From Polyangiaceae bacterium (lineage in GTDB: Bacteria; Myxococcota_A; Polyangia; Polyangiales; Polyangiaceae), in the NCBI GenBank assembly GCA_020846005.1, contig JADLEQ010000096.1:1-64000 (forward strand): 64,000 nt of DNA. The letters run 5' to 3'. Position 1 is the first letter of the stretch; each line of letters begins with the position of its first letter. Both the position numbers and the translations under genes were made by a program. This document shows, piece after piece, positions 7,897-27,468 of the stretch. Below the pieces are notes generated by a model. That model ran no database searches, had not been told where the DNA came from, and saw nothing but the letters and a program-made list of their open reading frames with translations.

Positions 7897-8014
7897 CCCG
7901 CCCCCGCGCGCGACACGCGGGCCGGTCTGCCGGGAGGGCGCCCCGCCGCCGGAGATCCGCGGGAGCGAGCGTCACGCTTGGCGCCGCGACGAATTCGGGT
8001 AATCGAGCCGAGCG

Positions 8015-9904: not shown

Positions 9905-9936
9905 GGACGACGGGTCGATCGAAGACGAGGTGCGTG

Positions 9937-11736
9937 GTGGCGAAGCCCAAGATTCAGACGAAGAAGAAGAAGGCGGCAGCTCGCACCAGCGGCGCCGCGC
10001 GCCCCTCGCGCCACGCCAAGGTGAGCCGCGGCACGAGCTCGGCGGGGAGCTCCGCGCGCCAGGCGACGCGGGCCGCGGCGCCGGCGCCGGAGCTCGACGA
10101 GGAGGTCTCGGACACGGCCGTCGCGGACAGCGGCGCGGAGCCCCCCCCGCACGAGGCGCCGGCCGAGGAGTTGGGCGTCACGTTCGAGGAAGACTCCGAC
10201 GACGAGCCCATCGCGGAGCCGGTCGAGGACGCGTCGCTCGAGGAGCCCTCGCCCCGGCGGCCGTCTCCCCCCGCGCGCGAGCCGGCCGTCGGCCCCCCGG
10301 TCCGGGCGCGGTCCGGCGACGAGGAAGCGCAGCGGAGCAGCGACCCGGTGCGCCTCTACCTGCGCAAGATGGGGAGCGTCCCGCTCCTCACGCGCGAGGG
10401 CGAGGTCGCCATCGCGATGCGGATCGAGGACGGCGAGCACCAGGTGCTCGACGCCATCCTCGGGACCCCGATCGCGCTGCGCGAGATCATCGAGCTCGGC
10501 GAGCGCCTCGAGCAGCGCAAGTCGCGCATCCGTGAGATCGTGAAGGACGGCGACGACGAGGAGCAGGCGTTCGACGAAGCCGAAGCGGAGCGCAGGTTCC
10601 ACAAGGTCACCGCGCGCGCTCGGGAGCTCGAGGCTCGCCTCCGCGACGCACCTGCGCGACGCGCCGGCGGCCCCGGGGGACGCAAGGCCGCGGGGGACCT
10701 CGCCGGTGAGCGCAAGGAGCTCGTGACCGCGCTCCACGCCATGCGCCTGAACAAGCGCACGGTGGACCGCATCGTGGGCAAGCTGAAGGCGCTCGTCGAT
10801 CGCGTCGAGCAGCTGGTGGGCGGAACGCGGGAGGCTTCGTTCGCCGCCGGGGCGCGCGCGGAGCTGGCGAGGCTGCTCGAGGGCGGGACGGTCGCAGCGC
10901 CTTCGGCGGCCGCTGACGCGAGCGATCGCAAGGCAGACGAGTCGGTTCGAGCGGCCGTCCAGGAGCTCCGGGCGACCTACGAGGCGCTGCGGCAGGGCGA
11001 GCGACGCGCGGAGGCGGCGAAGGCGCAGCTCGTCCAGGCGAACCTCCGCCTGGTCGTGAGCATCGCGAAGAAATACACGAACCGCGGCCTGCAGTTCCTC
11101 GACCTCATCCAGGAGGGGAACATCGGCCTGATGAAGGCGGTCGACAAGTTCGAGTACCGGCGGGGCTACAAGTTCAGCACCTACGCGACGTGGTGGATCC
11201 GGCAGGCGATCACGCGCGCCATCGCCGATCAGGCGCGCACGATCCGCATCCCCGTGCACATGATCGAGACGATCAACAAGCTCATCCGCACGTCGCGCTA
11301 TCTCGTCCAGGAGCTCGGGCGCGAGCCGACGCCGGAGGAGATCGCGACCAAGATGGAGCTGCCGCTCGACAAGGTCCGCAAGGTGCTGCGTATCGCGAAG
11401 GAGCCGATCAGCCTCGAGACTCCCATCGGCGAGGAGGAGGACAGCCACCTCGGCGACTTCATCGAGGACAAGAGCGCGGTGAACCCGGCCGACGCCGTGA
11501 TCAACCTCAACCTCTCCGAGCAGACGCGGCGCGTGCTCCGCACGCTGACGCCGCGCGAGGAGAAGGTGCTGAGGATGCGCTTCGGGATCGGCGAGAAGAG
11601 CGACCACACCCTCGAGGAGGTCGGCCAGGATTTCGAGGTGACCCGGGAGCGGATCCGCCAGATCGAGGCGAAGGCGCTGCGCAAGCTCCGGCACCCCGCT
11701 CGGGTGAAGCAGCTGAAGACGTTCGTCGAGGGCTGA
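9937..11736 (+). CDS. rpoD: RNA polymerase primary sigma factor (sigma-70)
   Basis: Directs RNA polymerase to housekeeping promoters. From the GTG at 9937 (protein begins MAKPKIQ, with a GAGG 6 nt upstream) it is 599 aa. Region 1.2 starts near residue 136 ([11 protein letters not shown]). A long non-conserved insert follows. Regions 2.1-2.4 start near 365 ([12 protein letters not shown], then [16 protein letters not shown]). Region 3 follows, and region 4.2 is near 555-590 ([17 protein letters not shown]). The first 130 residues are a Lys/Ala then Asp/Glu/Pro-rich low-complexity tail in place of a recognisable region 1.1. An in-frame GTG at 9901 overlaps the dnaG stop codon and would add 12 residues. 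Same operon as dnaG. Confidence 0.96.
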
Positions 11737-11771: not shown

Positions 11772-14700
11772 TCAGTCGCCCTGCCAGGGGCGACCCGCCG
11801 CGGCGAGCGCCCGCTTCGCCTCGTCCCGGTAGGGCGAGTCGCGGGGGCCGTCCCGCAGGAACGCCTCCCAATGGCGCGCCGCGTCCTTCCCGGTGCCGAG
11901 CGCCCGCGCGTAGAGCAGGTGGGCGTCGGGCAGCCACCGAGGCTTGGACTCGGCCGCCTCGCCGAGCTGGATCGCGCGTCCGAGGTGATCGGCAGCCTCC
12001 CCGGCCCGGTTGTTCGCCGCGAGGAGGCGTCCGTAGCGGTAGCGCCACATCGCGTTGTCCGGGTGGGCGCGGACGGCGAGCTCCCACTCCGCGATGGCCT
12101 GGGCCTCTTTGCCTTCATCATAGTAGGCCTCGGCGAGCGTCGCGTGCGCCTCGTGGCGGCTCGGCCGGAGCTCGAGCGCCTTCCGCAGGTCGGCGATCGC
12201 GTCGCGGACGCGCCCCTGCCGGTACGAGAGCACGCCGCGCTGCCAGTAGGCGTCGGCGAGCCCCTGGTCGAGCGCCAGCGCCTTGCGCAGCGCCTCCTCT
12301 GCCTTCGCTACCCTCCCCGCCTCGTTCGCTGCCCAGCCGACGTACAGGTAGTACTCCGCCCGGTTCGGGTCGAGCTCCACGGCGCGCTCGAGCGTCCGCA
12401 ACGCCTCCGCGAGGTTCTGCCCCTTGAGCAGCATGGCGCGCCCGAGGCAGTGGTTCGTCTCCGCCGACTGCTGGCGTTGGGACAGCACCTTGCGCAGGAG
12501 CTCCTCCGCCTGCTCGGGGCGCCCGGCAGCCACCTTGCTGCATCCGACGCGGAGCATGAGGTCCGGGTCGTTCGGCGCCTTGGCGAGCGCTCCCTCGTAA
12601 GCGCGAAGCGCCTCCTCCGTGCGACCCGAGGCCTCGAAGAGCAGACCGCGCTCGAGCGCCAGCCCCGGGTAGTCGCGATCGACCGCGGCGACGGCGTCGA
12701 AGGCCTTGGTCGCGTCCTCGAAGTTGCCCTTCCGGCGGTGCGCGATGCCGAGCTTGAACCTCGAGTCGAGGTCCGTCGGGTCGATCCCCACCGCGCGAGC
12801 GAGCTCCGCGAGCGCGTCGTCGTACCTCCCTTGCGCGAGCGCCAGCTCGCCGAGCGCGCGGTGGATGAGCGGCGAAGTCGGCAGCTTCTCCTTGGCGTCG
12901 GCGAGGATCTTCTGCGCCTCCTCTCCGCGCCCCTGCTGGTTCAGCACGAGCGCGAGCGCGACATAGGCGAGCACCGCGTCGGGCTCGGTGGGCCCGGCCG
13001 CGACCGCCGCGCGATAGGCCGCCTCCGCCTCCGGGCGCATCCCGAGCGCCTCCTGGACCTTGCCGTCCCAATACGCGACGATCACGCTCTTCGGGTGCGC
13101 GACGCGCAGCTTGCGCAGCATCTCCTTGGCGTCGTTCAACCGCTCGAGCGCGATGGTCGTCTTCGCGACGCCGACCTGCGCCAGGAGGAAGTCGGCATCC
13201 GCCTCCGCCGCCGCCTGGAAGCGCGCGAGCGCCTCCGAGTATCGACCGGCGCGGTAGAAGGCGTCGCCCAGGCCGGCGAGCGCGCGCGCCCACTTGGGAT
13301 CGATCTTGAGCGCCTCGCCGTACGCGGCCTCCGCCAGCGACACCCGCGAACGCCCGAGGTGGATGTCCCCGAGCAGCGTCTGCGCGCGCACGACCTCCTC
13401 GGGGCTGGCGCCGGGGCTGCCGACCACCTCGGTGAGCAGCGCGGACGCGGCCTTCTCGTCCGCCTGGGTCGCCCAGAGGACACCGGCCTCGAGCAGCCGC
13501 GCGCCCACGTGGGCGGGGTTGCGCGCGAGCGCCTCCTTCGCCCGCGCCGACGCGCCGGCACCGTCACCAGAGAGCTGGAGCGCACGCGCCAGCCCAAACG
13601 CGGTGCGAGGGCTCTTCTCCAGCGCCTCGGCGGTCGTCCACGCAGCCACCGCAGCCCCGGCGTCGCGCGCGCGGAGCGCCAGCTCCGCCTCAAGGACGAC
13701 CACGTCGATCTTCTCCGGCTCCCGACCGGAGGCCTGTTGCGCGAGCTGAACGGCGCGGGCGAGCTGACCGCCGACGCCGGCCTGGGCCGCGAGCGCCAGC
13801 CCGTAGTGCGGCACCCCGTCGCCGCCCTCGAGGGCCTTCAGCGCGACCTGAGCGCGGGCGTTCACGTCCGGCGCGGCGCCGAAGCGAAGCTCGTGGAGGA
13901 ACGCGGCGTACGCACCGTACGCCGCGAGACCCTTGATCCGCCGAGCGCCCTCGCGCGCCGCCTCGAGATCCTGCAGCCCGGTTCGCGCGGTGTCGAAGGT
14001 GTCGCGCGCGAACGCGACGCGGGCCCGGGCAGCCTCGTCGCGGAGGCGCTGGTCGTACTCGCCCTTCCGCAGCGTGTCGTTGATCACGTGGTAGCCGAAC
14101 GGGCCCACGTCGGGCAGCGTGGCGAGGGCCCCGCCTCCGACGACGAACAACACCGCGGCGACGACCGCGTAGCGCCCCCCCCTGCGCGACCGCGGCGCCT
14201 CCACCGGCGCGGTCGGGGCGGTCGCGACCGGCGCGTGGAGGGGCCCGCCCGGCGGCGCCATCGACGCCTCCGCGGAGGCGTCCCGCTCCTGCGGGATCGC
14301 CCCGAACTCCATCTCGTCGCCCAGCCCGGCCTCTTCACCGCCGCCGAGGTCGACCTCGCCGAAGCTCACGCCCCCCCCAGCCTGCCGCGTGAGCGCCTTC
14401 TGATCCTGCGGGACGGATTGAGACGGGGGTTGCGACGGCCCTCCCGGCGCGGGCGGGGCCGAGGAGGGCCCCCCGAACGGATCGGACGCCGGAGGCTCGA
14501 AGGACGAGCGGGCCGGCATCGCGAACTCGCCGCTCGGGGCTCGCATCCGATCGCCGGGGAACTCGCCGGAGGGCACGGCCGACGGCGGCCCGCCGGAGCC
14601 CCCGCCGCCGAACGCCGCGAAGGCGCCGACGCTCGACGCGGAGGCGCGCGGCGGAGTCGGCTGCGGCCACGCTGCGCCGGCGTCACCCCGCCCGAGCGAA

Positions 14701-15899
14701 TCCGGCGCCTCGAGATCGCCGAAGGCCGCGAGCCCGCCGCTCGGCGGCGCGGCGGTGGCAGGCAGCGCGGCGCCGCCCAGCGCGGGGAGCCCGGAAGACG
14801 AGATCGCGGGGAGGGCCGCCCCGCCCAACGCGGGGAGGGCCGCCCCACCCAACGCCGGGAGCGCAGCCCCACCCAACGCGGGGAGCCCGGTCCCGCCTAC
14901 GGTGGGGAGTTCTGCACCGCCCACGCTCGGCAGGTCCGCGCCGCCGAGGCTCGGCAGCTCCGCGCCGCCCAGGCCCGGCAGGTCCGCGCCGCCGAAGCTC
15001 GGCAGCTCGACGCCACCCAGGCTCGGCAGCTCGGCGCCGCCCACGCTCGGCAAGTCGAGCGAATCCGTACCGGGGAATCCCACATCAGGGAGCGCGGGGA
15101 GATCTCCCGCGGGCCCGGCCAGCGCAGGGAGCTCGAGATCGTCGAAGCCACCTCGGGGAGGGGCGCCGAAGGCGGCGGCTCCGCCGACCGTCGGGAGATC
15201 GAAGTCGCTCGCGGCGGGTGCTCCGCGCGTCGGCTGCGCCGCCCCGTGCCCGCCCAGGGACGGGAGGTCGTCGTCGAGCAGGTCGAAGGCGTCGGGCGCG
15301 GCCGGAGAAGGCGCGGGGCCGCCCGCCCGCGGGGCACCGCCCGCCGCGAAACCCGCCGGGCTCGGAAGCTCCGGGGCGTCGAGATCGATCTCGCCGAACG
15401 CTGCCGGCGCCGGTGGGTGGGGCGCCGCCGGGGCCGGCGGCGCCGCCGCCAGGTCTCGCGCGCGCGGGGCGTCCGGCGACGTGCGGTGCGCGGAGGGCCG
15501 CGGGGGCGGCGCGGGGCGCCCCGGAGCGCGGGGCGCGGACACGCCCACGACGGGCAGATCGAGCTCGTCTCCGCTCGCCGGAGGCGGTGGGGCGGCGGGC
15601 ACCGGCGTGGGCGGCGGAGGCGCCGCCGGCGGGCGCTGCGCGCCGCCCCCCGGCGCGGCGACGCCGACGATGGTGGCCGCGCGCGGGCGGCGCGGGACGG
15701 GCGGCGGACCGGCCGGCGCGCCGCGCGGCTCGGCCTGCAGGACGGGGCTCGGGCCCGTCTGGCGCGGATCCCTGGGCGGTGGGTCCACGCGGAACGACTC
15801 CCCACACTTCGGGCAGCGCATCTTGAGTCCAGCCGCGGGGACCCGGCGCTCGTCGACCTGGAACGGTGCCTTGCACCCGGGACACTCGACCTTGAACAC
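11772..15899 (-). CDS. MJ0042-type zinc ribbon, octapeptide-repeat and TPR membrane protein
   Basis: A 1375-aa protein of unknown specific role. In order it has an N-terminal MJ0042-type zinc ribbon (Cys6, Cys9, Cys29, Cys32), a Pro/Ala-rich region, about twelve copies of an LPxLGGxx octapeptide at about 280-381, a further Pro/Ser-rich linker, one transmembrane segment near 575-597, and a C-terminal domain from about 670 to the end with many tetratricopeptide repeats. This places the zinc ribbon in the cytoplasm and the TPRs in the periplasm. The ribbon-linker-TM-TPR order resembles myxobacterial trans-envelope scaffold proteins, but I cannot name an orthologue. It converges on rpoD across 35 bp and starts divergently, 98 bp from the parvulin-like gene. 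Confidence 0.88.
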   Translation of the reverse strand: MFKVECPGCKAPFQVDERRVPAAGLKMRCPKCGESFRVDPPPRDPRQTGPSPVLQAEPRGAPAGPPPVPRRPRAATIVGVAAPGGGAQRPPAAPPPPTPVPAAPPPPASGDELDLPVVGVSAPRAPGRPAPPPRPSAHRTSPDAPRARDLAAAPPAPAAPHPPAPAAFGEIDLDAPELPSPAGFAAGGAPRAGGPAPSPAAPDAFDLLDDDLPSLGGHGAAQPTRGAPAASDFDLPTVGGAAAFGAPPRGGFDDLELPALAGPAGDLPALPDVGFPGTDSLDLPSVGGAELPSLGGVELPSFGGADLPGLGGAELPSLGGADLPSVGGAELPTVGGTGLPALGGAALPALGGAALPALGGAALPAISSSGLPALGGAALPATAAPPSGGLAAFGDLEAPDSLGRGDAGAAWPQPTPPRASASSVGAFAAFGGGGSGGPPSAVPSGEFPGDRMRAPSGEFAMPARSSFEPPASDPFGGPSSAPPAPGGPSQPPSQSVPQDQKALTRQAGGGVSFGEVDLGGGEEAGLGDEMEFGAIPQERDASAEASMAPPGGPLHAPVATAPTAPVEAPRSRRGGRYAVVAAVLFVVGGGALATLPDVGPFGYHVINDTLRKGEYDQRLRDEAARARVAFARDTFDTARTGLQDLEAAREGARRIKGLAAYGAYAAFLHELRFGAAPDVNARAQVALKALEGGDGVPHYGLALAAQAGVGGQLARAVQLAQQASGREPEKIDVVVLEAELALRARDAGAAVAAWTTAEALEKSPRTAFGLARALQLSGDGAGASARAKEALARNPAHVGARLLEAGVLWATQADEKAASALLTEVVGSPGASPEEVVRAQTLLGDIHLGRSRVSLAEAAYGEALKIDPKWARALAGLGDAFYRAGRYSEALARFQAAAEADADFLLAQVGVAKTTIALERLNDAKEMLRKLRVAHPKSVIVAYWDGKVQEALGMRPEAEAAYRAAVAAGPTEPDAVLAYVALALVLNQQGRGEEAQKILADAKEKLPTSPLIHRALGELALAQGRYDDALAELARAVGIDPTDLDSRFKLGIAHRRKGNFEDATKAFDAVAAVDRDYPGLALERGLLFEASGRTEEALRAYEGALAKAPNDPDLMLRVGCSKVAAGRPEQAEELLRKVLSQRQQSAETNHCLGRAMLLKGQNLAEALRTLERAVELDPNRAEYYLYVGWAANEAGRVAKAEEALRKALALDQGLADAYWQRGVLSYRQGRVRDAIADLRKALELRPSRHEAHATLAEAYYDEGKEAQAIAEWELAVRAHPDNAMWRYRYGRLLAANNRAGEAADHLGRAIQLGEAAESKPRWLPDAHLLYARALGTGKDAARHWEAFLRDGPRDSPYRDEAKRALAAAGRPWQGD

Positions 15900-15997
15900 G
15901 ATACCCAGTGTCGCACACCCGCGCCTCCGCCGGGAACGGCAAAGTGCGCCCCGCCCCGCGCGAGTGTCCCCCGATCCGTGCTAGCCGTCCCGCCCGG

Positions 15998-16552
15998 ATG
16001 GAACTCTCGTCCCGTGTCGCGCTGGGTGCGCTGCTCTTTGCCGCGGTGGGCGCGGTGGTTCTCGGGACTCGCCAGGGCGCGGTGAGCGCGCCCGCCGCGC
16101 CGCCGGCGCCGCCGAGCGCCTCGGCGAGCGCCTCGGCGGAGCCGGACGCGCCGGGCGACGCGGGCCTGGACGGTGAGGTCGAGGCCGAGGAGGCAGAGAC
16201 GACGCTCGGCGCGACGGCCGACGGAGGCAGCTTGCCCGCCGGCGCGCCCAAGAGCGTCCGCTTCGGCGTCATCTTGGTGACCTACGAGGGCGCCCAGCTC
16301 GCGCCCCGCGGCGCGCGCTCCAAGCAGGCCGCGCGCGCGCTCGCCACCGAGCTGGCGACCGAGGCGCAGACCCAATTCGCGAAGGCCGTGGAGCGGGGCG
16401 ATCGAGGCTCGCTGGCCGACGCCGGCCGGATCCCGCGCGGGATCCTCGAGCCCCATATCGAGTTCGCGCTGTTCACGCTGAAGAAGGGCGAGGTGGCTGC
16501 CGAGCCGGTCGACACGCCGCGCGGCTTCTGGGTCGTCCGGCGGCTCGAGTAG
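15998..16552 (+). CDS. Membrane-anchored parvulin-like (PpiC) domain protein
   Basis: A 184-aa protein with an N-terminal hydrophobic anchor (about residues 6-23), an Ala/Pro/Ser-rich spacer to about 85, and a C-terminal parvulin-type rotamase-like domain. The domain shows the family pattern: RFGVILVTYEGAQ at the start, a SKQAARALATEL helix, a GILEPHIEFALFTLKKGEVA block, and a terminal GFWVVRRLE. It is probably a periplasm-facing peptidyl-prolyl isomerase or a chaperone-like relative; the catalytic residues cannot be judged without alignment. ATG at 15998 chosen because the anchor follows it directly. It lies between the zinc-ribbon TPR protein and the giant TPR pair, 75 bp before the latter. 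Confidence 0.7.
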   Translation: MELSSRVALGALLFAAVGAVVLGTRQGAVSAPAAPPAPPSASASASAEPDAPGDAGLDGEVEAEEAETTLGATADGGSLPAGAPKSVRFGVILVTYEGAQLAPRGARSKQAARALATELATEAQTQFAKAVERGDRGSLADAGRIPRGILEPHIEFALFTLKKGEVAAEPVDTPRGFWVVRRLE

Positions 16553-16627
16553 TCGGAGCGCGCCGGGGCGCCGTCAGCGCACCTGTTGCTTCGCCGCGGG
16601 CCGTGCCATCCTCTCGCGCCGCTCCGC

Positions 16628-19600
16628 ATGACGACCCGCCCCCCTGCACCCACGGAGCCGGCGCTCGCCGCAACGGTCGACCGCCTGCGCGCCGAGCACG
16701 ACGCCGCCGTCGAGGGCGCCGTCCGCGCTGCGCTGCTCCACGAGATCGGGCTGCTGGAGGAGGCGCTCGGCGACGAGGCCGGCGCCGCGCGAGACCACCT
16801 CGCGGCCGTCAACGCGGAGCCTGAGTTCCGCGAGCCGCTCGAGCGCCTGATCGCCATCATCGAGCGGCGCCAGTCGTTCAAGAACCTGGGCAAGCTCCTC
16901 GAGCGGCTCTCCCGCGTGGCGGACAGCGCCGAGGAGCGGGCGAGGGCGCTGCACGCGCGCGCCGCGTTCGCGCTGGACCACGACGACGACGCCACCGGCG
17001 GCCGCGAGTTGGCCGAGGAGTGGGTCGGCGAGGCGCCGGACGACGCCGCGGCGTGGCTGCTGCTCGAGTGCGCGGCAGGGCGGCTCGAGGACGCGCCGCT
17101 CCGCCTGCGCGCGATGACGGAGCGAGCCGAGCGCGCGCGCGACCCGGAGTGGGCGGCGCTGCTCTGGGCGGACCTGTCGAGCCTTGAGCTCGACGCTGAC
17201 GCACCCGACCGCGCGTTCGAGGCGGCCGAGCGCGCCGCCGGCTTCGAGTCGGGCGCGACGTGGGCGGCGCTGCGACGTCTCGAGGAGCTGGCCACGCGCG
17301 CCCAGCGCCCCGACCGCCTGGCGCGAGTGCTGGAGACGCAGGCGGCGCTGCTCGAGCGGCGCCGCGAGGCGCCGGCGGAGGGCGACCGGCTCGGTGTCCC
17401 CCGGTGGACCACCGGGACCGGTCCCATCGCCGACGCGCTGCTCCGCGCCGCCGCGGCGGCGCGCGCCCACGGCGATGTGGGCCAGGCGACGACGCTGCTC
17501 GACCGCGCGCTCGAGGCCGCGCCCGACGAGCCGTCCGTGCTCGCGGCGCGGCTCGCGGCCGCCGAGGCGGTCGGTGATCTGGAAGGCGCGTCGGTGATCG
17601 CCCGCAAGGCACTCGAGCGAGGCGCCTCCGGCGGCGTCGCCGCGGCGCTGTGCCTCAAGCTGGCCGAGGCGGCGTCGGCAGCGGGCGACGCCGCCGGCGC
17701 GCTCGCCGCCGCACAGGCGGCGCTCGGGCACGACCCGGGCTCCATCCCGGCGCGGACACTCGCGCTGGACCTCCTCGCCGGCGCGAGCGACCCGCCGGCG
17801 CTCGCCGGGCTGCTCGAGAGCACAGCCGAGCGGTGCGGGGCCGACCCCGCCAGGGCTCGCGGATTCCTGCTGGCCGCCGACGCGTGGGCCCGGGGGAACG
17901 AGCCGCAGGCCGCGCGGGCGGCGCTGTCGCAGGCCGGCATGTACGGCGCGAGCCCCGGCGTGGTGGCGCGAACGGCCCGCATGCTCGCCGGCGCGGCGGC
18001 AGACACGGCCTGGTACGACGAGGCGACGCGCCGGCTGATGGCCGCCGGCGCCGACGCCAGCGAGCAGGCGTCGCTCGCCTTCGAGCTCCTCCGCGGTCGC
18101 CTGCAGCGCGGCGACGCGACCGGCGCGCAGACGGCTGCGTCCGCCATCGCCGCCGCGCCGGGCGGCGAGTGGCTCGGCCACGCGCTGCGCGCGTGGCTCG
18201 TCGTGGATGGCGACGGCGCCTCGGCGGCGAGGGATCTCGCGGGCACCGTGGGCGACGACGACCACGCCGCGGCCCTGCGGGTCGTCGCGGCCGCGAGGGC
18301 GCTCGCCGGCGGGCGCGCCGACGAGGCGCACGGCGACCTCGTCGCGCTCGCGGCCGAGCCGGGCCCGGGCCTGATCGCGGCCGTCGCGGCAGCCGCGCTC
18401 GATCGCGAGGCCGGCGCCACGACGGCCGCCGCCGAGCTCCTCGCCGGGGCGGGCGATCGCGCCGAGGACGCGCCGCTCGCCGCCGCGCTGCTCCTCGAGG
18501 CGGGGCTGCTGCGGTGGCGCGCCGGGGACCGCGCGGGGGCGCTCGAGGCGTTCCGCGGCGCTGCCGACCGCGACCCCACAGGCGCTGGCGCGGTCCTCGG
18601 GTGGGCGCTCCGGTCGGCCGATCCAGAGTCCATCGAGGCCCGTCGCGCGGCGCTCGCTTCGGCGCCAGCGGACGACACCCTCGCGACGCTCGAGCGCTAC
18701 GGACTGGAGCTCGCGACCAGCGACGGGGCGGAGGCCGCGCGCGCCGCGCTCGAACAGCTCGCCGCCGCTCCCTCGCCGCTGCCCGAGGTCGCGACGCTCG
18801 CTCGCGCCCTCGAGCCCGGCGTCGAGCACGCAGACGACCGCATCGCGGCCCTCGACGAGCTAGCGCTGCTGCCGGGGACGACCGCGCTCGTCGCCGGCGA
18901 GCAGCACCTCGCGGCGCTCGCGGGCGGCGCCGCCGGCACCGCGGAGCTCGCCGCGAGCGCCGCCGCCTGGGCGGGCGCGGACGAGTCGAGCGCCGCGGCG
19001 GCGCTCGAGTGGGTCGCGCGCGCGGTCGGGGCGGCCGATCCGGCGGCGGAGCTCGACGCGCGACGCGCGCTCGCCGCGCGGCTCACCGAGCCGGCGTCGC
19101 TCGAGATCGAGTGCGGCGTGCGCATGGCCTCCGCGCTCCGCGGTGAGAGCGAGCCGCTGCTCGGGCGACCCCAGGCGTCGGCGCGCGCGGCGGACCTCGA
19201 GCTCGCGCCGCCGGGGTCGGACCCGGCGCGGCGCGCGGCCGCGCTTCGGCGCGCGAACGTGCTCTTCGGGGCGGAGACCGGGCCGGTGTTGTCGGCGCTG
19301 GCGGGGTGGAACCAGCTCGCCCGCGGGGACCTCGAGGGCGCGCAGAGCTCGTTCCGCGCGGTCGCCGAGGCCCACCCGACGGACGTGTTCGGGTGGGACG
19401 GGCTGCGCGCGGCGTCCGAGGCGCTGGGCGACCGCGCGAGCGTGGCAGAGGCGCTCGCGGCGCTGGGCGACGCACTGGCGGACGCCACGACGGGCTCGGA
19501 GGCGTGGGAGCGCGCCGCCGCGATCCTGATCGACGAGCTGGGCGACCACGGCCGCGGCGAGCTCGCGCTCTCCCGAGCGGTCGAGCGCGACGTCCGTCGC

Positions 19601-21307
19601 TTCAGCTCGTTCGATCGTTTGTTCCGCATCGTCCGCAGCCGCAAGGACGGCGCGCGACTGCTCGAGCTCGTCGAGGCGCGCCTCGCAGTCGCCGAGGAGC
19701 CCGACGAGATCGCCAAGCTGTTCTGGGAGCGGGCACGCGTGCTGCGCGAGGCGGGGAACCTGGAGGGCGCGCTCGCAGCCCTCGAGAACGTGACCATGCT
19801 CGAGCCGGACCACGTGGGCGCGCTCGCGCTGTCCGGCGAGATCTGCATCAAGACCGGCAATTTCGTCGAGGCAGCGCGCAACCTGGGTCGGCTCGCGGCG
19901 CTGGACGAGGCTCCGCAGAAGCAGCGCTTGATGAGCGGTGTCGCCGCCGTCGACCTCTACGAGAACAAGGTCGGGGACCCGGCCGCCGCCCTCGAGGTGC
20001 TGGTCGAGCTCCACCGCGCCGGGCTGTCTACGCTCGCGGTGCGCGAGCGCCTGGCGCGCGCCGCCACGCGCGTGCAGTCGTGGGAGCACGCGGTCGCCGC
20101 CCTCGAGCTGCTCATGGAGGAGCGCGAGACCCGCGAGGGGCGGATGGAAGCCGCGCGCCTGGCGCTCGCCGTGCGGCGCGACGAGCTGCACGCGCCCGAG
20201 GGCGCGCGCTCGGCCGCGGCGCGCCTCCTCGCCGAGGCGCCGGAGGACGCCGAGGCGCTCGATTTCGTCCTCAGCGGCGCCCTCCCGGCCGCGAGCGCCG
20301 CGCCGCTGCTGCAGGCTGGGCAGCAGGCGCTCGTCGCCGCGCTGGCGCAGGAGCCGCTCGACGCGGAGCGTGTGAACCGGTTGGCGAGGATCGCCCTTCA
20401 TTTTGGCAACTCGCCGCTCCGGCAGGCGGCGCTCGGCGCCCTCGTCGCGCTGGGGCGCGGCTCGCCGCAGGTGGACGCCGAGCTGCAGCGCCTGGACGAG
20501 CGAGTGGCGCGGCTACCGCAGATCGCCGTCGACGCGGCCGCGCTCCCCGAGCTGTGCGATCCTTACGACGGCGGCCCGGTCGGCGAGCTGATGGTGGCGC
20601 TCGCGACGACGTTCGCCGAGGCGGTGGGGCCCGGGCTCCAGGCCTTCGGCGTGGGCAAGCGCGAGCGCGTCGACCCGCGCGCCGGGCTCCCGATCCGCAA
20701 TGAGGTGGCCGCGTGGGCGGGCGCCCTCGGCGTGGGGGACTTCGAGCTCTACGTCGGCGGGACCGACCCGCACGGCATCGCCGCTGTGCCGCTCGAGACG
20801 CCGTGCGTCGTCATCGGGGCGTCGGTGACAGCGCCGCTGGCCGCACCGCACCGCGCCGCGCTCGCGCGTGAGCTGTTCGGGCTGCGCCGCGGGACGACCC
20901 TCTTGCGCCACCGCGAATCGGCGGACGTCGCTGCGCTCGTCGTCGCCGCGTGTCGCGTGGGCGGGGTCGACGTGCCGAGCCCGCCCTACGCGATGCTGGC
21001 GGAGTTCCAGCGCCAGCTCGGCAAAGAGATCTCCCGCAAGGCGCGCAAGGTGCTACCCGACCTCGCTCGCGCCGTCGCGCACTCCGGACAAGACCCGGTG
21101 GTCTGGGCGCAGGCGGCGCGCGCCAGCCTCGATCGCCTGGCGGCGATCGCGGCAGGTGACGTGTCCTGGGTGCTGGCGGGCGTCGGCGTCCGCGGGCACT
21201 TGGGCGCGTCGGACGAGGCCCGGAGCCGCGCCGCGCGGCTCCTCGGGTTCGTGCTGTCGCCGAGCTACCTCGCGATCCGCGAGCGACTCGGGATGGGAGT
21301 GCGATGA
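16628..21307 (+). CDS. Giant TPR protein with M48-like C-terminal domain lacking HExxH (first of pair)
   Basis: A 1559-aa Ala/Glu/Leu/Arg-rich protein made almost entirely of helical TPR-like repeats. No signal peptide or membrane segment is evident, so a cytoplasmic scaffold is likely. The last 250 residues differ: they have a beta-strand FELYVGG near 1373 and, about 40 residues later, LARELFGLRRG near 1413. Spacing and sequence recall the core of M48 metallopeptidases, but the zinc-binding HExxH is replaced by ARELF. The next gene has a matching domain. ATG at 16628 preferred; a TTG at 16586 would add 14 residues. Its stop overlaps the next start (ATGA), so the two proteins are probably made together. 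Function unknown. Confidence 0.85.
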   Translation: MTTRPPAPTEPALAATVDRLRAEHDAAVEGAVRAALLHEIGLLEEALGDEAGAARDHLAAVNAEPEFREPLERLIAIIERRQSFKNLGKLLERLSRVADSAEERARALHARAAFALDHDDDATGGRELAEEWVGEAPDDAAAWLLLECAAGRLEDAPLRLRAMTERAERARDPEWAALLWADLSSLELDADAPDRAFEAAERAAGFESGATWAALRRLEELATRAQRPDRLARVLETQAALLERRREAPAEGDRLGVPRWTTGTGPIADALLRAAAAARAHGDVGQATTLLDRALEAAPDEPSVLAARLAAAEAVGDLEGASVIARKALERGASGGVAAALCLKLAEAASAAGDAAGALAAAQAALGHDPGSIPARTLALDLLAGASDPPALAGLLESTAERCGADPARARGFLLAADAWARGNEPQAARAALSQAGMYGASPGVVARTARMLAGAAADTAWYDEATRRLMAAGADASEQASLAFELLRGRLQRGDATGAQTAASAIAAAPGGEWLGHALRAWLVVDGDGASAARDLAGTVGDDDHAAALRVVAAARALAGGRADEAHGDLVALAAEPGPGLIAAVAAAALDREAGATTAAAELLAGAGDRAEDAPLAAALLLEAGLLRWRAGDRAGALEAFRGAADRDPTGAGAVLGWALRSADPESIEARRAALASAPADDTLATLERYGLELATSDGAEAARAALEQLAAAPSPLPEVATLARALEPGVEHADDRIAALDELALLPGTTALVAGEQHLAALAGGAAGTAELAASAAAWAGADESSAAAALEWVARAVGAADPAAELDARRALAARLTEPASLEIECGVRMASALRGESEPLLGRPQASARAADLELAPPGSDPARRAAALRRANVLFGAETGPVLSALAGWNQLARGDLEGAQSSFRAVAEAHPTDVFGWDGLRAASEALGDRASVAEALAALGDALADATTGSEAWERAAAILIDELGDHGRGELALSRAVERDVRRFSSFDRLFRIVRSRKDGARLLELVEARLAVAEEPDEIAKLFWERARVLREAGNLEGALAALENVTMLEPDHVGALALSGEICIKTGNFVEAARNLGRLAALDEAPQKQRLMSGVAAVDLYENKVGDPAAALEVLVELHRAGLSTLAVRERLARAATRVQSWEHAVAALELLMEERETREGRMEAARLALAVRRDELHAPEGARSAAARLLAEAPEDAEALDFVLSGALPAASAAPLLQAGQQALVAALAQEPLDAERVNRLARIALHFGNSPLRQAALGALVALGRGSPQVDAELQRLDERVARLPQIAVDAAALPELCDPYDGGPVGELMVALATTFAEAVGPGLQAFGVGKRERVDPRAGLPIRNEVAAWAGALGVGDFELYVGGTDPHGIAAVPLETPCVVIGASVTAPLAAPHRAALARELFGLRRGTTLLRHRESADVAALVVAACRVGGVDVPSPPYAMLAEFQRQLGKEISRKARKVLPDLARAVAHSGQDPVVWAQAARASLDRLAAIAAGDVSWVLAGVGVRGHLGASDEARSRAARLLGFVLSPSYLAIRERLGMGVR

Positions 21308-24300
21308 GCGACGACGAGCCGCCGAACAAGGGAGGGCCCGAGGCGCGGCGCCCGCTGGGCGCGGGCCGGAGCGGCCCCGCTGCCAGCATCGGCGCCGAGC
21401 TCGGCGCGCTGGACTTCGAGCCGGACGCGCTGCTCGACTCCCTGTTGACGGAGGACGACGCGCTCCCCGCCTCGCCGCGAGTGGCCGTCCGAGCTCCGTC
21501 GTCGCCGGGCTCGCAGAGCGGGGGTAGTGCTCCTCCCCCTACCCCCGATCTTGCGCCGCGCCCTCCGGCGGCGCCCCGGCCCGCGCCGACGCCGGCCGCG
21601 GCGCCGGCAGCGCCGCGGCCGGCCGTCACGGCGGCGGCGCCGCCCGCGCCCCGCCGAGCCTCGCCGACCCCCCCGGCGCCGGCCTCCAGCGCGGGCGGGC
21701 TCCCGCGGCCGGCACCCCGCACGCCGCTCGATCGGACGCAGAAGCCACCCGCGGTCAACCCCGCGGGCCCCCCGCCTCGGGAGCCGTTCCTGCCGGCGCA
21801 CAGCCCGGTGGCCCCCGTGGCAGCAGACGTCGGCGCGGGCGAGCTCGACTTCGAGCTGATGGACGCCGGCTCGTTCGAGCCTCCGCCGGTCGCCGCGGCG
21901 GGCGAGGCGCCGGCAGAGCCTCCCGCGGATCCGGTCGAATTCGAGGCGAGCGGCGAGCTGTCGGCGGCCGAGGCCGCAGAGCTCGAGGCGCTGGCCGCCG
22001 CGAGCGAAGACGCTGGCGCAGAGGACGTCGAGGTGCCGAGCGAGGACGCCGGGCCGGCCGCGGCGCAGCTCGCGAGCATGGGTACGCTCGACGCGTTCGC
22101 GGAGCGCGCACGTTGGACGGAGGAGCGCGCGAGGGAGCTGGTGGACACGCCCGCGCGCGCCCGGGGGCTCCTCATCGCGAGCGAGCTGTGGGCGCTCACG
22201 GGCGAGCTCACCCACGCCCGCGAGCTAGCGGGTGAGGCCGCTTCACTCGTCCCTTCGGGCTACGGCGCGAGGCAGCAGCGGGCCCTCGCGGCCGTCGAGG
22301 GGGACCTGCCCTCGGTCGTGAAGGCGCTCGACGTCGAGGCGCGCGCGGCGGCGACCCCCGAGCTTCGCACGCACGCGGCGACCCTGGCGGCCGACATCGC
22401 GCGCCTCCTGCTAGAGGACGCGGCCGGCGCGGAGCGGCGGCTCGCGGTGGCGGCGAAGCTCTCACCGAGCGACGCGCGCGCCCCGCTCCTCCAGGTCGCG
22501 GCCGCCCTGGGGCAGGCCCGCCCTGCCCGCCCGAAGCTCCCTGAGGGCGCGCCGCTCGCCGGGCTCCGTCACGCCGTGGACGCCCTCCTCGTGCTCCGAG
22601 GGCTCGCGGCGGGCGACGCACCGCCGTCGCCGCTCTGGGCGTTCGAGCGAGCGCGCCGCGCCCTCGGCGCGCACGATCGGGCGACCGCGGCCGCCGCGTT
22701 GCTCGATCTCGGGGGTCTCGCGCCGCTCGGCGTCACGTCGCGCTGGTTGGCGAGCGCCGTCGCCGCGCCGACCGCGGCCTCTCGCGGCCTCTCCACACGC
22801 GCGCTCGAGGAGCTCCTCCAGATCGAGCCGAACGAGACCGCGCGGCGAGCGCTCGCCGCGCGTGCCCTCGAGAGCGGCGACGCGACCGCCGTCCTCGCAG
22901 CGCTGGAGAGCGACGTCTCGAGCTCGCCGACGTTCGGGCCAGCCGACGCCCTGGCGCTGGCGGTGCTCGCAGGTGCCGACGGCGGCAAGCTCCGAGACCG
23001 GGCGGCCGCGGCGCTGGGCGTGGTGGAGCTGGAGCCTCTCGCGGCGGCGGTCGACTCGTGCGCCGCCGGCGCCCTCGACGCCCCGGCGGTGCTCGCGGGC
23101 ATCGAGTCGAGCCGCGCGCGCGTCGCCCTGGGCCGCGCGCTGGCGGGCGCGACGCGCGAGGGCGGCGCGGCGCGCGTCGCTGCGGCGGTCGACGCCGCGG
23201 CGGCGGCGCTCCCGGGCGACCCCGCGGCGACGCTCCTCGCGCTCGAGCTCGCGCGGCGAGCCGGCGACTACGGGGCGCTCGCGACCTCGTTCACCAGCGG
23301 CTCGGGCGCCGGCGTGGGCGGCGACGAGCGGAGCCGCCGGCTGGCGGCCGCGCTCGCGAGCGAGCTCGCGCAAGACTCGGAGGGCGCCGTCGAGCAGTAC
23401 CGCGGAGCGCTCGAGGCCGATCCGCGCTGCGAGGCGGCGACGCGCGTGCTCGCGTCGGTGGCTGGCGGCGAAGGTGCGGCCGATCTGCTCGCCTCGCTCG
23501 CCGCCGCCTGGGGTGAGGGTCCCCCGGCCTCGCTGCTGCTCGTCGAGGCGGCGCTCGGCGCAGGCTTCGGCGCGCCCGATCGGATGAGCGAGCTGCTCCT
23601 CGAGGCCGGCACGACGCCGGAGGTGCCGTTCGCGGCGCGCTGGGGCGAGCTGCTCGGTCGCATGCGGGGCGACACGGACGCCGTGCTCGGCTGGCAGCGC
23701 GCCCGGCGCGCCGCGGCGGACGACCCGGTCGAGCGCGCCCACGATCTCGTCCGCGAGGCGTTGCTGGTGGCCGAAGCAGATCTCGACCAGGCGGCGAGCC
23801 TGATCGGCGAGGCGGTCCAGGCGCGCCCCGAGGACGTCGCCCTCCGTGAGCTGCACGAGCGCCTCGCGCCCGGTGACCCGGCCGCGCAGGCCGCCTGGCG
23901 TGACGAGGTCGCCCGGTCGGCGTCCGACCCCTTCAGCCGGCGCTGGCTGCTCGAAGCCGCCGCCTTCGCCCACGAGCGCGCCGGGCAGTTCGAGGCCGCG
24001 GCGGCGGCGGCGCGCGCGGTCACCCCCGAGCCGGGCACCCTCGCCGACCTGCTCGCCGAGCGGTGCAGCCGCACGGGGCCGCAGGCGGCCCTGCTCGCCG
24101 AGCGCCTGCTCGCCTCCGCGCGCGCGACCGAGGACGCCCGTGAGCAGCGAGAGATCTACGAGCGGCTGGCGGCGCTCGACGAGGCTCGCGGCGAGGCCTC
24201 GAGCGCGCTCCTCTGGCAGCAAGCGATCCTCGAGGGGACGCCGGGGCACCTCCCCGCCCTCCGCGCGCTCGAGCATGCCCGGATCGGCGCCGGGCGCGAC

Positions 24301-26598
24301 GCCGAGCTGGAGGCGGTCGCCGCGGCGCTCGCCGAGCGCCTGGGCACGGATCCCGAGGCCGAAGCGCACGCGCTCTGGGCGGCCCGCCTGCGCGCCAAGG
24401 ACTCCGGCTGGGAGAGCGCGGCACCGCTCGCGGAGCTCGCCTGCCGCGGAGCTCGCCCCTCGTTGCTGGCGCTGCGCCTCGCGTCGGCGCTGTCGCGCAG
24501 CCGGGGCGAGGACGCGAAGCAGCTGCGCCTCGACGTCGCGCTCGCCGAGCGCTCCGCGCGCGCGCTCGATGCCTCGACGCTCCGCCTTCGCGCCGCGGAG
24601 GCCGCGTCGCGGCTGGGCCAGCAGGACACCGCGCGCTCGCTGCTCGCCGCGGCGGTCGACCAGTGCGCCGAGCACTTCGTGGCCCTCACCACCTACGCCG
24701 ACGTGCTGGAGGCGGAGGGAGAGGCGGCCCGTGCCGCCGAGGCGCAGGAGCGGATCGCGGAGCGGAGCGGCGTCGCGATCCATCAGCTCGCCGCGTGGCA
24801 CCACGCCGCGCTCCTCTGGCTCGACAAGGTGGGCGACGCCGCGCGAGGCGTGCGAGCGCTGGAGCAGGCGTTCGAGCGAGACACGACCCACGAGGACGTC
24901 TTCGCGCGCCTGCAGGCCGCGTACATCGCCGCCGGCGAGCGCGCCAAGCTGGCCGAGCTCCTGGAGCGGCGGCTCGAGCGGGTCGAGGACCCGGCCGAGC
25001 GCGTCGCGTTGGAGGTGACCCGGGGGCGCGCGCTCTACGAGATCGGGGACGCCGCGGCCGCCAAGCACGCCCTCGCCGCCGCGCTCGAGCAGGCGCCCGA
25101 TCACATCGACGCGCTCCGCGCCTACGCGGACCTCTGCGCCGCGGAGGGTGACTGGAGCGGCGCAGAGCAGGCCTGGTCGAGCCTGGCTCGTCAGCTCAAG
25201 GAGCCGCTCGCCCAAGCCGAGATCTACCGCCGGTTGGGCGCGCTCTACGAGGCGGACCTCCCCAACCCGGCCCGAGCGGAGCTGGCGTACCGCGAGGTGC
25301 TGCGCCGCCTTCCGGGCGACGTGGCCGCGAGCGAGCGCCTGGTCGAGGTCTACGCGCGGCTCGGCGACGCGACGAAGGCGCAGGAGATCGTCGAGGCCTT
25401 GCTCGGCGCCGCGTCGACACCGGAGGAGACCCGCGACCGCACCTTGTTGCTCGCGCGGGTCCAGGAGGAGGTCGCGGGAGATCGCAAGGCGGCCGAGGCC
25501 ACGCTGGAGAAGCTCCGTAAGACGCACCCGCACGACGGACTCGTGCTGCGCGCGCTCGCCGGCTACCACCAGCGCGGCGGCGCGCAGGGGCCGCTCACGG
25601 TGCTCCTCGATCGCTCCGCCAACGAGGTGCGCCGCGCGCTCGGCACGGGGCGCTTCGAGGCGTCGTTCTTCGAAGTGCTGGCGACAGTCGCCGAGCTGCG
25701 CGGCCACGCGGACGCCGCGAGCGTCGCGCGAGCGACCCTGGCGATGCTGGAGGGCGCGCCGGTCGAGATCGCTGGGGCCGGGTTCGCGGCGGGCGATCCG
25801 CGCCTGGACGAGCTCCTCGCGCCCGAGCTCTTCACCCTCCCGTACCGGGCGCTGCTGAAGAAGAGCGGCGACCTGCTCGACGCCGCGTTCCCGGTCGACC
25901 TGCGGGGGCTGCGAGCGGCGCCGCTGCCCGCGGAGTACCAGGCCTTCGTCGCCCAGCTCCGCGAGGCGGCGACGGCGTTCGGGCTCGTGAACCTCGACGT
26001 CTACGTCTCGCCGTCGCTCGGCCCGGTGTGCATGCCCGCCTGCTCGTCGCCGGCCCAGATCGTGTTCGGGAAGGTGCTGCTCGAGTCCGAGGACGCCCTC
26101 GCGCGTACCGTGCTCGTGCTCCGCGCGCTCAAGATCCTCCAGGCGCGGCTGGGCGCGTTCGCGCGCACCGCGCCGGTGGATCTCTGGCCAGTCGCCGCGG
26201 CGCACCTCGCGGTCTTCGCGCCCGGCTGGCAGCCGCAGGGGGCCGACGCGAGGAAGTTCGCGGAGGCGCGGGCGAAGATTCAGGCGGCGATGACCCAGCG
26301 CCTCGACGACGACGTGCCGGTGCTCGCCCTCGAGGTGATCGGCAGCATCGGCAACCGAGCGAGCCAGCTCTCGACGGCCGCAAACCAGTGGGGCAACCGC
26401 GCGGCGCTCCTCGCGGTGGGCGATCCGAACGCCGCGCTGCGCGCGCTCGCGCTCTCCGCAGGGCAGACCGCGGGCCCCCCGGCGGAGCGAGCCGAGCGCC
26501 TGAAGTGGGTGACGCGGAACCCGGAGGCGCGGGATCTCGCGGTGTTCAGCGCGAGTGACGCCTACGCGGAGGCCCGGCGCCGGATCGGTCTCGGCTGA
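21304..26598 (+). CDS. Giant TPR protein with M48-like C-terminal domain lacking HExxH (second of pair)
   Basis: A 1764-aa protein, apparently paralogous to the preceding one. Residues 1-30 are basic and polar, 30-250 are a Pro/Ala then Glu/Ala-rich low-complexity region, and about 260-1500 are degenerate TPR repeats, clearest near the C-terminal end (for example ERLVEVYARLGDATKAQEIV). The C-terminal domain has LDVYVSP near 1564 and ARTVLVLRALKIL near 1599, the same arrangement as its neighbour and again without a zinc-binding HExxH. It starts inside the preceding stop codon (ATGA at 21304), so translation is coupled. No membrane segment is visible. A role in large-complex assembly is plausible but not demonstrated. 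Confidence 0.85.
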   Translation: MSDDEPPNKGGPEARRPLGAGRSGPAASIGAELGALDFEPDALLDSLLTEDDALPASPRVAVRAPSSPGSQSGGSAPPPTPDLAPRPPAAPRPAPTPAAAPAAPRPAVTAAAPPAPRRASPTPPAPASSAGGLPRPAPRTPLDRTQKPPAVNPAGPPPREPFLPAHSPVAPVAADVGAGELDFELMDAGSFEPPPVAAAGEAPAEPPADPVEFEASGELSAAEAAELEALAAASEDAGAEDVEVPSEDAGPAAAQLASMGTLDAFAERARWTEERARELVDTPARARGLLIASELWALTGELTHARELAGEAASLVPSGYGARQQRALAAVEGDLPSVVKALDVEARAAATPELRTHAATLAADIARLLLEDAAGAERRLAVAAKLSPSDARAPLLQVAAALGQARPARPKLPEGAPLAGLRHAVDALLVLRGLAAGDAPPSPLWAFERARRALGAHDRATAAAALLDLGGLAPLGVTSRWLASAVAAPTAASRGLSTRALEELLQIEPNETARRALAARALESGDATAVLAALESDVSSSPTFGPADALALAVLAGADGGKLRDRAAAALGVVELEPLAAAVDSCAAGALDAPAVLAGIESSRARVALGRALAGATREGGAARVAAAVDAAAAALPGDPAATLLALELARRAGDYGALATSFTSGSGAGVGGDERSRRLAAALASELAQDSEGAVEQYRGALEADPRCEAATRVLASVAGGEGAADLLASLAAAWGEGPPASLLLVEAALGAGFGAPDRMSELLLEAGTTPEVPFAARWGELLGRMRGDTDAVLGWQRARRAAADDPVERAHDLVREALLVAEADLDQAASLIGEAVQARPEDVALRELHERLAPGDPAAQAAWRDEVARSASDPFSRRWLLEAAAFAHERAGQFEAAAAAARAVTPEPGTLADLLAERCSRTGPQAALLAERLLASARATEDAREQREIYERLAALDEARGEASSALLWQQAILEGTPGHLPALRALEHARIGAGRDAELEAVAAALAERLGTDPEAEAHALWAARLRAKDSGWESAAPLAELACRGARPSLLALRLASALSRSRGEDAKQLRLDVALAERSARALDASTLRLRAAEAASRLGQQDTARSLLAAAVDQCAEHFVALTTYADVLEAEGEAARAAEAQERIAERSGVAIHQLAAWHHAALLWLDKVGDAARGVRALEQAFERDTTHEDVFARLQAAYIAAGERAKLAELLERRLERVEDPAERVALEVTRGRALYEIGDAAAAKHALAAALEQAPDHIDALRAYADLCAAEGDWSGAEQAWSSLARQLKEPLAQAEIYRRLGALYEADLPNPARAELAYREVLRRLPGDVAASERLVEVYARLGDATKAQEIVEALLGAASTPEETRDRTLLLARVQEEVAGDRKAAEATLEKLRKTHPHDGLVLRALAGYHQRGGAQGPLTVLLDRSANEVRRALGTGRFEASFFEVLATVAELRGHADAASVARATLAMLEGAPVEIAGAGFAAGDPRLDELLAPELFTLPYRALLKKSGDLLDAAFPVDLRGLRAAPLPAEYQAFVAQLREAATAFGLVNLDVYVSPSLGPVCMPACSSPAQIVFGKVLLESEDALARTVLVLRALKILQARLGAFARTAPVDLWPVAAAHLAVFAPGWQPQGADARKFAEARAKIQAAMTQRLDDDVPVLALEVIGSIGNRASQLSTAANQWGNRAALLAVGDPNAALRALALSAGQTAGPPAERAERLKWVTRNPEARDLAVFSASDAYAEARRRIGLG

Positions 26599-26602
26599 CA
26601 CG

Positions 26603-26621
26603 GGCCCGCCCCGATCGGGCC
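26603..26621. terminator. Possible hairpin after the giant TPR pair
   Basis: GGCCCG at 26603-26608 and CGGGCC at 26616-26621 form a 6-bp stem with a 7-nt loop in the 33-bp gap after the second giant TPR gene. There is no T-tract, and the hairpin sits immediately before the ribosome binding site of the next gene. It could therefore attenuate rather than terminate. Confidence 0.3.
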
Positions 26622-26631
26622 GGAGGGGAGG

Positions 26632-27468
26632 TTGCGCAGCCGGCGCGTCGGGCCATGCTGGTGCGTGCCGCGGTGGCCCTGGCTGTGTGCGCTCGCCGCC
26701 GGCGGGCTGACGGGCCCGTCACGCGCCGTGCCCACCGCCCGGTTCGACGAGCTGCCGCCCGCGCCGCCAGCCCCGCCGCCCGCGCAGAGCGAGCCCGCGT
26801 CGGTCTCGCCCGCGCCCGCTCCGCCCGCGCCGCCGGCCAGGCCGCCTCGCGACACCGCGCCTCCCGTCCCCGCGGCCCGCGCGTCGGGCGAGTGCCTGCC
26901 GAGCGCCTTGCGACTGATCGCGCGCGCGCGCCAGCACGAGGCGCGCGCCGACGCCGCGTTCGCGATCCGCGCGTACACTGACGCCGTCCAGGTCGATCCG
27001 GGCTGCGGCGAGGCGTGGCTCGGCCTCGCGCGGGCACGCGAGCGGAGCGGGGACCGCGTCGAAGCGGAGGCGCTCTATGGCCGCGCCGCGCGGATCCGCG
27101 GCGCAGCGCCGGACGCGCTCGGGGCGCGCGGGCTCCTGCGCTGGGGCGAAGCGCGTCACGAGGAGGCGCTCGCCGATCTCGGCGCAGCGTACGAGCTCTC
27201 CGGCGCCGAGCGGTGGCGCCGCGAGCTGGTGAGTCGGTACGTGGAGCGGCGGCTCTGGGTCGCGGCGCTCGCGCTCTGGCGGCGCCGGCTGGCCGCTGTC
27301 GAGCCGGGCAGCGCCGAGCACACCGAGGCGAGCATCCAGGTCCAGGCGCTCACGCTGCTCTCGGGCGAGCTGGATCCGGTGCGGGACCCGACCGCTCCTC
27401 GCTGGGAGCGTCGCGCGATGGCGCGGATCGCCGCGCGGACGGCGACGCCGCTCACGAACCGGCGCTGA
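26632..27468 (+). CDS. Secreted or membrane-anchored small TPR protein
   Basis: A 278-aa protein with an N-terminal signal-like segment (basic start, then WPWLCALAAGG), a Pro/Ala-rich linker to about residue 85, and a TPR region from about 95 to 230 (FAIRAYTDAVQVDPGC, EAWLGLARARERSGD). It starts with TTG at 26632, justified by the strong ribosome binding site GGAGGGGAGG immediately upstream and by the signal sequence that follows. It is 33 bp downstream of the giant TPR pair on the same strand and may belong to the same transcription unit. It probably acts in the periplasm. Function unknown. Confidence 0.72.
   Translation: MRSRRVGPCWCVPRWPWLCALAAGGLTGPSRAVPTARFDELPPAPPAPPPAQSEPASVSPAPAPPAPPARPPRDTAPPVPAARASGECLPSALRLIARARQHEARADAAFAIRAYTDAVQVDPGCGEAWLGLARARERSGDRVEAEALYGRAARIRGAAPDALGARGLLRWGEARHEEALADLGAAYELSGAERWRRELVSRYVERRLWVAALALWRRRLAAVEPGSAEHTEASIQVQALTLLSGELDPVRDPTAPRWERRAMARIAARTATPLTNRR

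Follow-up and report, generated by a model that had tools for sequence, protein, structure and literature searches.

To our knowledge, little is understood of GltI, a component of the gliding complex of myxobacteria, and in this complex the zinc ribbon of GltJ (AgmX) is the part that makes the contact with MglA. According to published accounts, GltI (AgmK, MXAN_4863) of Myxococcus xanthus is a protein of 4132 aa with tetratricopeptide repeats (TPRs) and neither a signal peptide nor a transmembrane segment (TM) (PMC3169522), GltJ is named among the effectors contacted by MglA for gliding (PMC12288465), and the edge strand of the M48 domain of BepA holds LptD also in a chaperone-like role (PMC8423444). 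The window analysed here is a stretch of 64,000 nucleotides (contig JADLEQ010000096.1, positions 1 to 64,000, assembly GCA_020846005.1) from a Polyangiaceae bacterium with a genome of 5.7 Mb in 119 contigs. Five genes fill its positions 11772-27468, encoding a zinc-ribbon membrane protein with TPRs (ZnTPR), a parvulin-type peptidyl-prolyl isomerase (PPI), two large TPR proteins (TPRA and TPRB) and a small TPR protein. The locus is old, vertically inherited and conserved, and its core is a pair of GltI-type scaffolds, TPRA and TPRB.

The scaffold pair and its relation to GltI

TPRA matched TPRB by BLASTP (5e-15), and the last ~350 residues of the two aligned as profiles with an E value of 1.2e-25 over 345 columns (hhalign). 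Judged by sequence, the two are paralogues arranged in tandem, and each consists of a long TPR array closed by a member of the same domain family; an initial annotation of this DNA missed both the paralogy and the shared C-terminal domain. AlphaFold2 modelled the domain with a pLDDT of 96.0 in TPRA and 96.4 in TPRB (alignments of 39 and 44 rows, respectively), and the domain was almost always found at the extreme C-terminus of its host protein, with a median of one residue left. Pfam searches with all members of both domain alignments gave no consistent domain, and a PDB sequence search with the same alignments returned nothing for TPRA and TPR-helix or marginal rows only for TPRB. TPR proteins are common throughout the genome (109 TPR_16 matches) and a glt cluster on contig C40 is likewise rich in TPRs, so TPR density alone does not make the locus special. 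What sets it apart are the conserved gene order and the shared C-terminal domain.

The profile of the TPRA domain matched 77 of 140 sampled genomes of the phylum, many of them in open frames of 3,400-4,100 codons. On contig C40 of the window's own genome a 3773-aa open reading frame (ORF) carries a TPRA-type domain (E 3.1e-28, hidden Markov model search) and is preceded, in order, by a 1159-aa TPR protein, a protein with a partial GltE match, a CglF match (26 bits), a GltG match (335 bits across model positions 5-647 of 650, against a cut-off of 650) and a 347-aa TPR protein. The corresponding gene row in a related genome (G022) opens with a GltC match (286 bits), and in two other genomes (G059, G065) a GltJ-like gene carrying a zinc ribbon and GYF_2 comes after the giant. 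None of these glt-cluster matches passes the curated equivalog cut-offs. Because the genes correspond in order and type to gltD-E-F-G-I of M. xanthus, we take the C40 giant as GltI/AgmK by synteny. The GltJ model exceeded its cut-off in none of 140 and none of 282 genomes of the phylum, and with no M. xanthus-like glt locus available from those sets the placement of GltI relied on synteny in related genomes.

Like GltI, TPRA and TPRB are long TPR arrays in which neither a signal peptide nor a TM is evident (a marginal hydrophobic stretch of TPRA has a mean of 1.64), and their C-terminal domain family also closes the synteny-defined GltI in the window's genome. Whereas GltI is a single protein of about 3.4-4.1 kaa encoded in the glt cluster, TPRA and TPRB are products of overlapping genes at another locus, measure 1.6-1.8 kaa and fall in clades of their own. 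In a tree of 91 domains, with 24 rows labelled as giants (one giant domain, from L193, entered twice), SH-aLRT support was 99 for the TPRB clade (22 rows), 98 for the TPRA clade (28 rows, 24 labelled TPRA) and 100 for the giant clade (29 rows, 23 labelled giant), although some clustering of the TPRA and TPRB labels is expected because these came from profile scores. Outside the C-terminal domain, only TPRB was weakly similar to the TPR part of GltI (7e-7). The view that the block matches no known motility cluster is thus not supported, as the C-terminal domain is common to TPRA, TPRB and GltI and an MJ0042-type ribbon is common to ZnTPR and GltJ.

No genes of the gltD-E-F-G cluster were found in the window's locus or among the recurrent neighbours of 48 relative loci. 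GltG was matched at E 1e-20 or better in all 59 genomes searched for TPRB, including six in which TPRB was not matched, and the TPRA-TPRB pair is therefore INDEPENDENCE from the Glt core, since the core does not need the pair. As no searched genome lacks GltG, the set informs on the core without the pair only, not on the pair without the core.

Conservation of the locus among relatives

The last 600 residues of TPRB were searched in these 59 genomes, the window's own included, and were matched in 53 of them, with most of the query covered or, in one (G055), in two adjoining pieces. The six without a match (G002, G013, G018, G023, G047, G052) include fragmented and small genomes. We compared 48 of the 52 relatives' loci, and wherever both genes were recovered TPRA lay immediately upstream of TPRB on the same strand (tblastn). 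The tandem was found throughout the order, with TPRA homologues named in Sorangium, Polyangium, Minicystis, Byssovorax and metagenome-assembled genomes of Polyangiaceae. Of the 42 relatives with both genes recognised, 35 showed a four-base overlap between the TPRA stop and the nearest in-frame TPRB start, and the overlap has the look of translational coupling. Other junctions were seen in L052 (+3), in L058, L076 and L080 (-7) and in L063 and L064 (+5). One locus (L083) was left unscored in this count, though its TPRA/TPRB junction reads ATGA, and an alternative tally of 38/47 was set aside, since it took contig-end TPRB stops for TPRA and counted L063 and L064 in.

The remaining genes were conserved over shorter distances. 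ZnTPR, recognised in relatives by its zinc ribbon, lay divergent to TPRA in 18 of the 48 loci, every one in the window's family, which amounts to 18 of the 26 same-family loci having TPRA and at least 1 kb of upstream sequence. In 23 of these 26 loci PPI preceded TPRA, and in 17 loci of the family the divergent arrangement of ZnTPR and PPI was fixed. A homologue of the small TPR protein was present in seven of the 48 loci, in some near relatives only and not always adjacent (~3 kb off in L041). Either rpoD or dnaG was within reach in eight relatives (G001, G005, G007, G010, G014, G021, G027, G029), and in most other loci read neither occurred in the available stretch. On this pattern the firm unit is TPRA-TPRB, ZnTPR-PPI is an addition at the level of the family, and the rest is neighbourhood.

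The initial annotation had described a five-gene island next to rpoD. The part of this that stands is TPRA-TPRB, as the core genes form a conserved and ordered unit in relatives and are not scattered; ZnTPR and PPI, however, belong to the unit in the window's family only and the small TPR protein in some near relatives. A meaningful link to rpoD was not supported, since rpoD is nearby in some relatives only and its position looks incidental. An island, or horizontally acquired block, was rejected in favour of an old vertical locus, with TPRB in 53 of 59 genomes and the locus placed among housekeeping genes.

A probable degenerate peptidase-like domain

The model of the TPRB C-terminal domain, compared with the PDB (VIA-align), was closest to HtpX (3cqb; Z 9.5, 95 residues, 2.5 A) and to an M48 structure (3c37; Z 8.4, 174 residues, 4.9 A), followed by BepA (Z 7.9 and 7.8), Ste24 (7.8), ZMPSTE24 (7.7) and BlaR1 (7.0), and unrelated helical rows started at Z 5.7. 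An M48 profile was built from 30 cleaned rows from relatives' genomes, and the TPR helices were trimmed off the TPRA and TPRB profiles. With hhalign, the trimmed TPRB profile matched the M48 profile with a probability of 46 in local and 65 in global mode and a score of 34.5, compared to 23.9 for the best of 40 block-shuffles and 12.4 for the reversed version. This match comes from a repeated comparison and is to be weighed accordingly, the first, against a poorer M48 profile (17 rows, some wrong), having indicated no relation (probabilities of 0.1 and 0.2).

In the hhalign alignment LVLRALKIL of TPRB and ALARELFGL of TPRA stand opposite the HExxH helix of M48, so that in both proteins Arg takes the position of the first zinc His and a residue other than His that of the second. 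HExxH was found in none of 101 domain hits with the TPRA profile and none of 87 with the TPRB profile at E 1e-5 (the two sets overlap and include related strains), and Arg occupied the aligned first-His position in 70 of the 101 and 79 of the 87. The C-terminal domain of TPRB is predicted to resemble M48 zinc peptidases, with HExxH lost; the link is weaker for TPRA, for which the fold is carried mainly by homology to TPRB. Since the HExxH residues are missing, the domain is probably an inactive, peptidase-like one. TPRB would share with M48 peptidases such as HtpX and Ste24 the fold predicted for its C-terminal domain, and with BepA (YfgC) the combination of TPRs with an M48-type domain. TPRA and TPRB differ from these proteins in the loss of HExxH, in having the TPRs first, in their apparently cytoplasmic location and in carrying the domain within a giant protein.

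Among the papers listed by the literature searches, in which subscription papers were poorly covered, none showed in its entry a peptidase-like domain in GltI or at the TPRA-TPRB locus, and as far as such searches can tell the domain assignment and the paired, overlapping arrangement are new. A confidently predicted C-terminal fold that recurs in this way, a peptidase-type domain with its zinc motif lost, offers a specific handle on GltI.

The same C-terminal domain was also found in other settings. A Ser/Thr kinase-TPR protein of the window's genome (contig C107, L150:4419-9866) ends in it, and a 664-aa protein of another genome (G166; L209:7984-9978) joins it (E 3e-30) to N-terminal zinc-ribbon-like cysteine pairs. 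The latter protein is a natural fusion of two part types seen at the TPRA-TPRB locus.

ZnTPR, PPI and membrane topology

ZnTPR combines a Zn_ribbon_4 match (E 9e-12), with CPGC...CPKC at the N-terminus, with many TPRs (Pfam), and PPI has a Rotamase match (PF00639) of 27.3 bits against a cut-off of 21.7. By hydropathy ZnTPR and PPI each had a single TM, that of PPI at the N-terminus. An excess of Lys and Arg was found on the N-side of the ZnTPR TM in 16 of the 16 copies with enough sequence, and the zinc ribbon and linker are therefore predicted to be cytoplasmic and the TPRs periplasmic. TPRA and TPRB had no evident export signal, apart from the marginal hydrophobic stretch in TPRA. A single complex reaching from cytoplasm to periplasm is a reasonable reading of these sequences.

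ZnTPR resembles GltJ in being a membrane protein with a TM and an N-terminal zinc ribbon of the MJ0042 type. It differs in two respects. GYF_2 was not among the 25 best of its 34 Pfam matches (the weakest of these at E 1.5e-4). Its TPRs run close to the C-terminus in place of the AgmX/PglI tail, the model of which was not among the 25 best of its 37 NCBIfam matches (the weakest at E 1.1e-5). GltJ-like genes in L193 and L277 have GYF_2 (2e-12 and 3e-14), and that in L277 also has the tail.

Proposed assembly and alternatives

We consider the chances about even that TPRA and TPRB are duplicated, shortened cousins of GltI that pair in the cytoplasm and dock on ZnTPR, forming a platform parallel to GltI/GltJ and not a piece of the Glt core. 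The docking and the purpose of such an assembly we infer as follows. TPRA and TPRB would be made in matched amounts and paired in the cytoplasm, where their peptidase-like domains may hold a partner without cutting it, as clamps, by analogy with BepA holding LptD on its edge strand. The pair would dock on the cytoplasmic side of ZnTPR, at its zinc ribbon or its linker, the periplasmic TPR array of ZnTPR would carry the link through the inner membrane, and PPI might help to fold or cycle the periplasmic part. The whole would act as a structural platform in parallel with GltI/GltJ of the gliding complex. Since Polyangiales genomes retain both the Glt core and, at another site, duplicated GltI-type scaffolds, the gliding parts and the TPRA-TPRB platform should be separable experimentally. 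A wider proposal, possible rather than probable, is that TPRA-TPRB with ZnTPR constitutes a second envelope machine of Polyangiales derived from duplicated GltI-type scaffolds, and that GltI-type proteins as a class use a dead M48 domain as a partner-binding clamp.

Several results weigh against the platform and its peptidase-like clamps. The identity of GltI depends on synteny and sub-cut-off profiles in related genomes, not on M. xanthus GltI itself. Z values under about 13 may be accidental for helical models, and Foldseek, which placed ZMPSTE24 first for the TPRB model, did so with a best E of only 0.13. The TPRA model gave nothing usable with Foldseek (best E 0.68), met the TPR parts of Fic proteins first with VIA-align (Ste24, BlaR1 and ZMPSTE24 followed at Z 6.0-5.2) and showed no excess over shuffles against the M48 profile (probabilities of 3.7 and 11; 1 of 40 shuffles as good). 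The predicted locations of PPI and of TPRA/TPRB are separated by the membrane. Finally, neither ZnTPR nor PPI was found beside TPRA-TPRB in 11 of the 11 other-family loci with at least 3 kb there, and the pair is therefore independent of them in those families or they lie elsewhere.

The same observations can be arranged differently. TPRA and TPRB could be accessory parts of the Glt complex, for example GltI subunits, whether alternative or additional, that act at the same focal adhesions, as might be expected from the domain they share with GltI, the glt cluster in the genome and the GltG match (E 1e-20 or better) in each of the 53 genomes that have TPRB. GltG, however, is just as constant in the six genomes without TPRB, the genes that recur next to the 48 relative loci include no glt genes, and TPRA, TPRB and GltI fall in separate clades, which makes this account unlikely. 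An assembly or quality-control system of the BepA kind, in which the peptidase-like domain and the parvulin fold envelope proteins with no force or scaffolding involved, seems improbable to a similar degree. BepA joins M48 and TPRs and depends on its edge strand for a chaperone-like function (PMC8423444); it is among the best folds for TPRB, and the parvulin gene adjoins the pair in 23 of 26 same-family loci. TPRA and TPRB, however, have no evident signal peptide or TM beyond the marginal stretch in TPRA, their domain order is opposite to that of BepA, and HExxH is gone.

The least probable account, which we regard as very unlikely, is that the pair forms a housekeeping or storage-granule scaffold of the cytoplasm with no role in the envelope, ZnTPR and PPI being mere neighbours. 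Their absence beside the pair in other families fits it, as do a PHA_gran_rgn-like gene in 11 of the 48 loci (one member confirmed by Pfam) and the dnaG-rpoD, atpC-like or nucleotidyltransferase genes near the locus in various relatives, but it is at odds with the fixed divergent arrangement of ZnTPR and PPI in 17 same-family loci, and the window's locus contains no polyhydroxyalkanoate (PHA) gene.

Feature coordinates and neighbouring genes

ORFs and Pfam matches bore out all five genes of the initial annotation at their positions, together with its zinc-ribbon/TM/TPR protein (Zn_ribbon_4, one TM and TPRs), its parvulin-like membrane protein (Rotamase over the cut-off, one N-terminal TM) and the ATGA overlap of the two giant TPR genes. 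The part spanning the membrane would be ZnTPR, predicted to be bitopic with its zinc ribbon on the cytoplasmic side. As that annotation had it, no further gene with coding composition lies inside 11772-27468. Its description of the small TPR protein as secreted is weakly supported; a TPR protein is present, but the window's copy has no strong hydrophobic segment. TPR_19 was just above the cut-off in TPRA, TPRB and the small TPR protein (Pfam), and no NCBIfam equivalog was over its cut-off for the five genes among the matches listed.

Table 1. Positions of the features of the TPRA-TPRB locus in the window.
Feature	Position	Strand	Basis
ZnTPR, MJ0042 zinc ribbon, ~540-aa Pro/Ala-rich linker, one TM, C-terminal TPR array, 1375 aa	11772..15899	-	Pfam, NCBIfam
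Zinc ribbon of ZnTPR, residues about 3-37	15789..15893	-	PF13717 E 9e-12; TIGR02098 33 bits vs cut-off 20.9
Single TM of ZnTPR, residues 577-595, RSRRGGR on N-side	14115..14171	-	hydropathy
Divergent intergenic stretch ZnTPR/PPI, candidate shared promoter region	15900..15999	.	sequence
PPI, N-terminally anchored parvulin-type peptidyl-prolyl isomerase, ORF 15908-16552, likely start ATG 16000	16000..16552	+	PF00639 over cut-off
TPRA, large TPR protein, no signal peptide apparent, ORF 16586-21307 (1573 aa), likely start ATG 16630	16630..21307	+	
TPRA C-terminal domain and last TPR helices; peptidase-like part about 20528-21304	20255..21304	+	AlphaFold2 pLDDT 96.0; hhalign to TPRB domain
ATGA stop/start overlap TPRA/TPRB	21304..21307	+	kept in relatives
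TPRB, large TPR protein, Pro-rich N-terminus, no signal peptide apparent, 1764 aa	21304..26598	+	
TPRB C-terminal domain, predicted degenerate M48-like fold; peptidase-like part about 25828-26595	25546..26595	+	AlphaFold2 pLDDT 96.4, VIA-align, hhalign
Small TPR protein, possibly exported, 278-aa ORF	26632..27468	+	TPR_19 25.7 bits

The block is preceded on the + strand by dnaG (ORF 8015-9904) and rpoD, the domains of RpoD lying in the C-terminal part of ORF 7978-11736. ARAGORN reported an odd tRNA with a four-base anticodon (gtcc) at 31212-31306 of the window (-), which may be spurious.

Other genes recurred beside the locus in relatives. The small PHA_gran_rgn-like gene, absent from the window, adjoins PPI in L043 (17670-17966), the one locus on which Pfam was run for it. 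A protein of ~200 aa, with no Pfam match in the copy searched (L066 only), recurs in seven of the 48 loci, in other families, and directly follows TPRB in L066 (15230-15838). A gene of the ATP synthase epsilon type precedes PPI in L057 (2515-3039) and has homologues in L058, L059 and L082.

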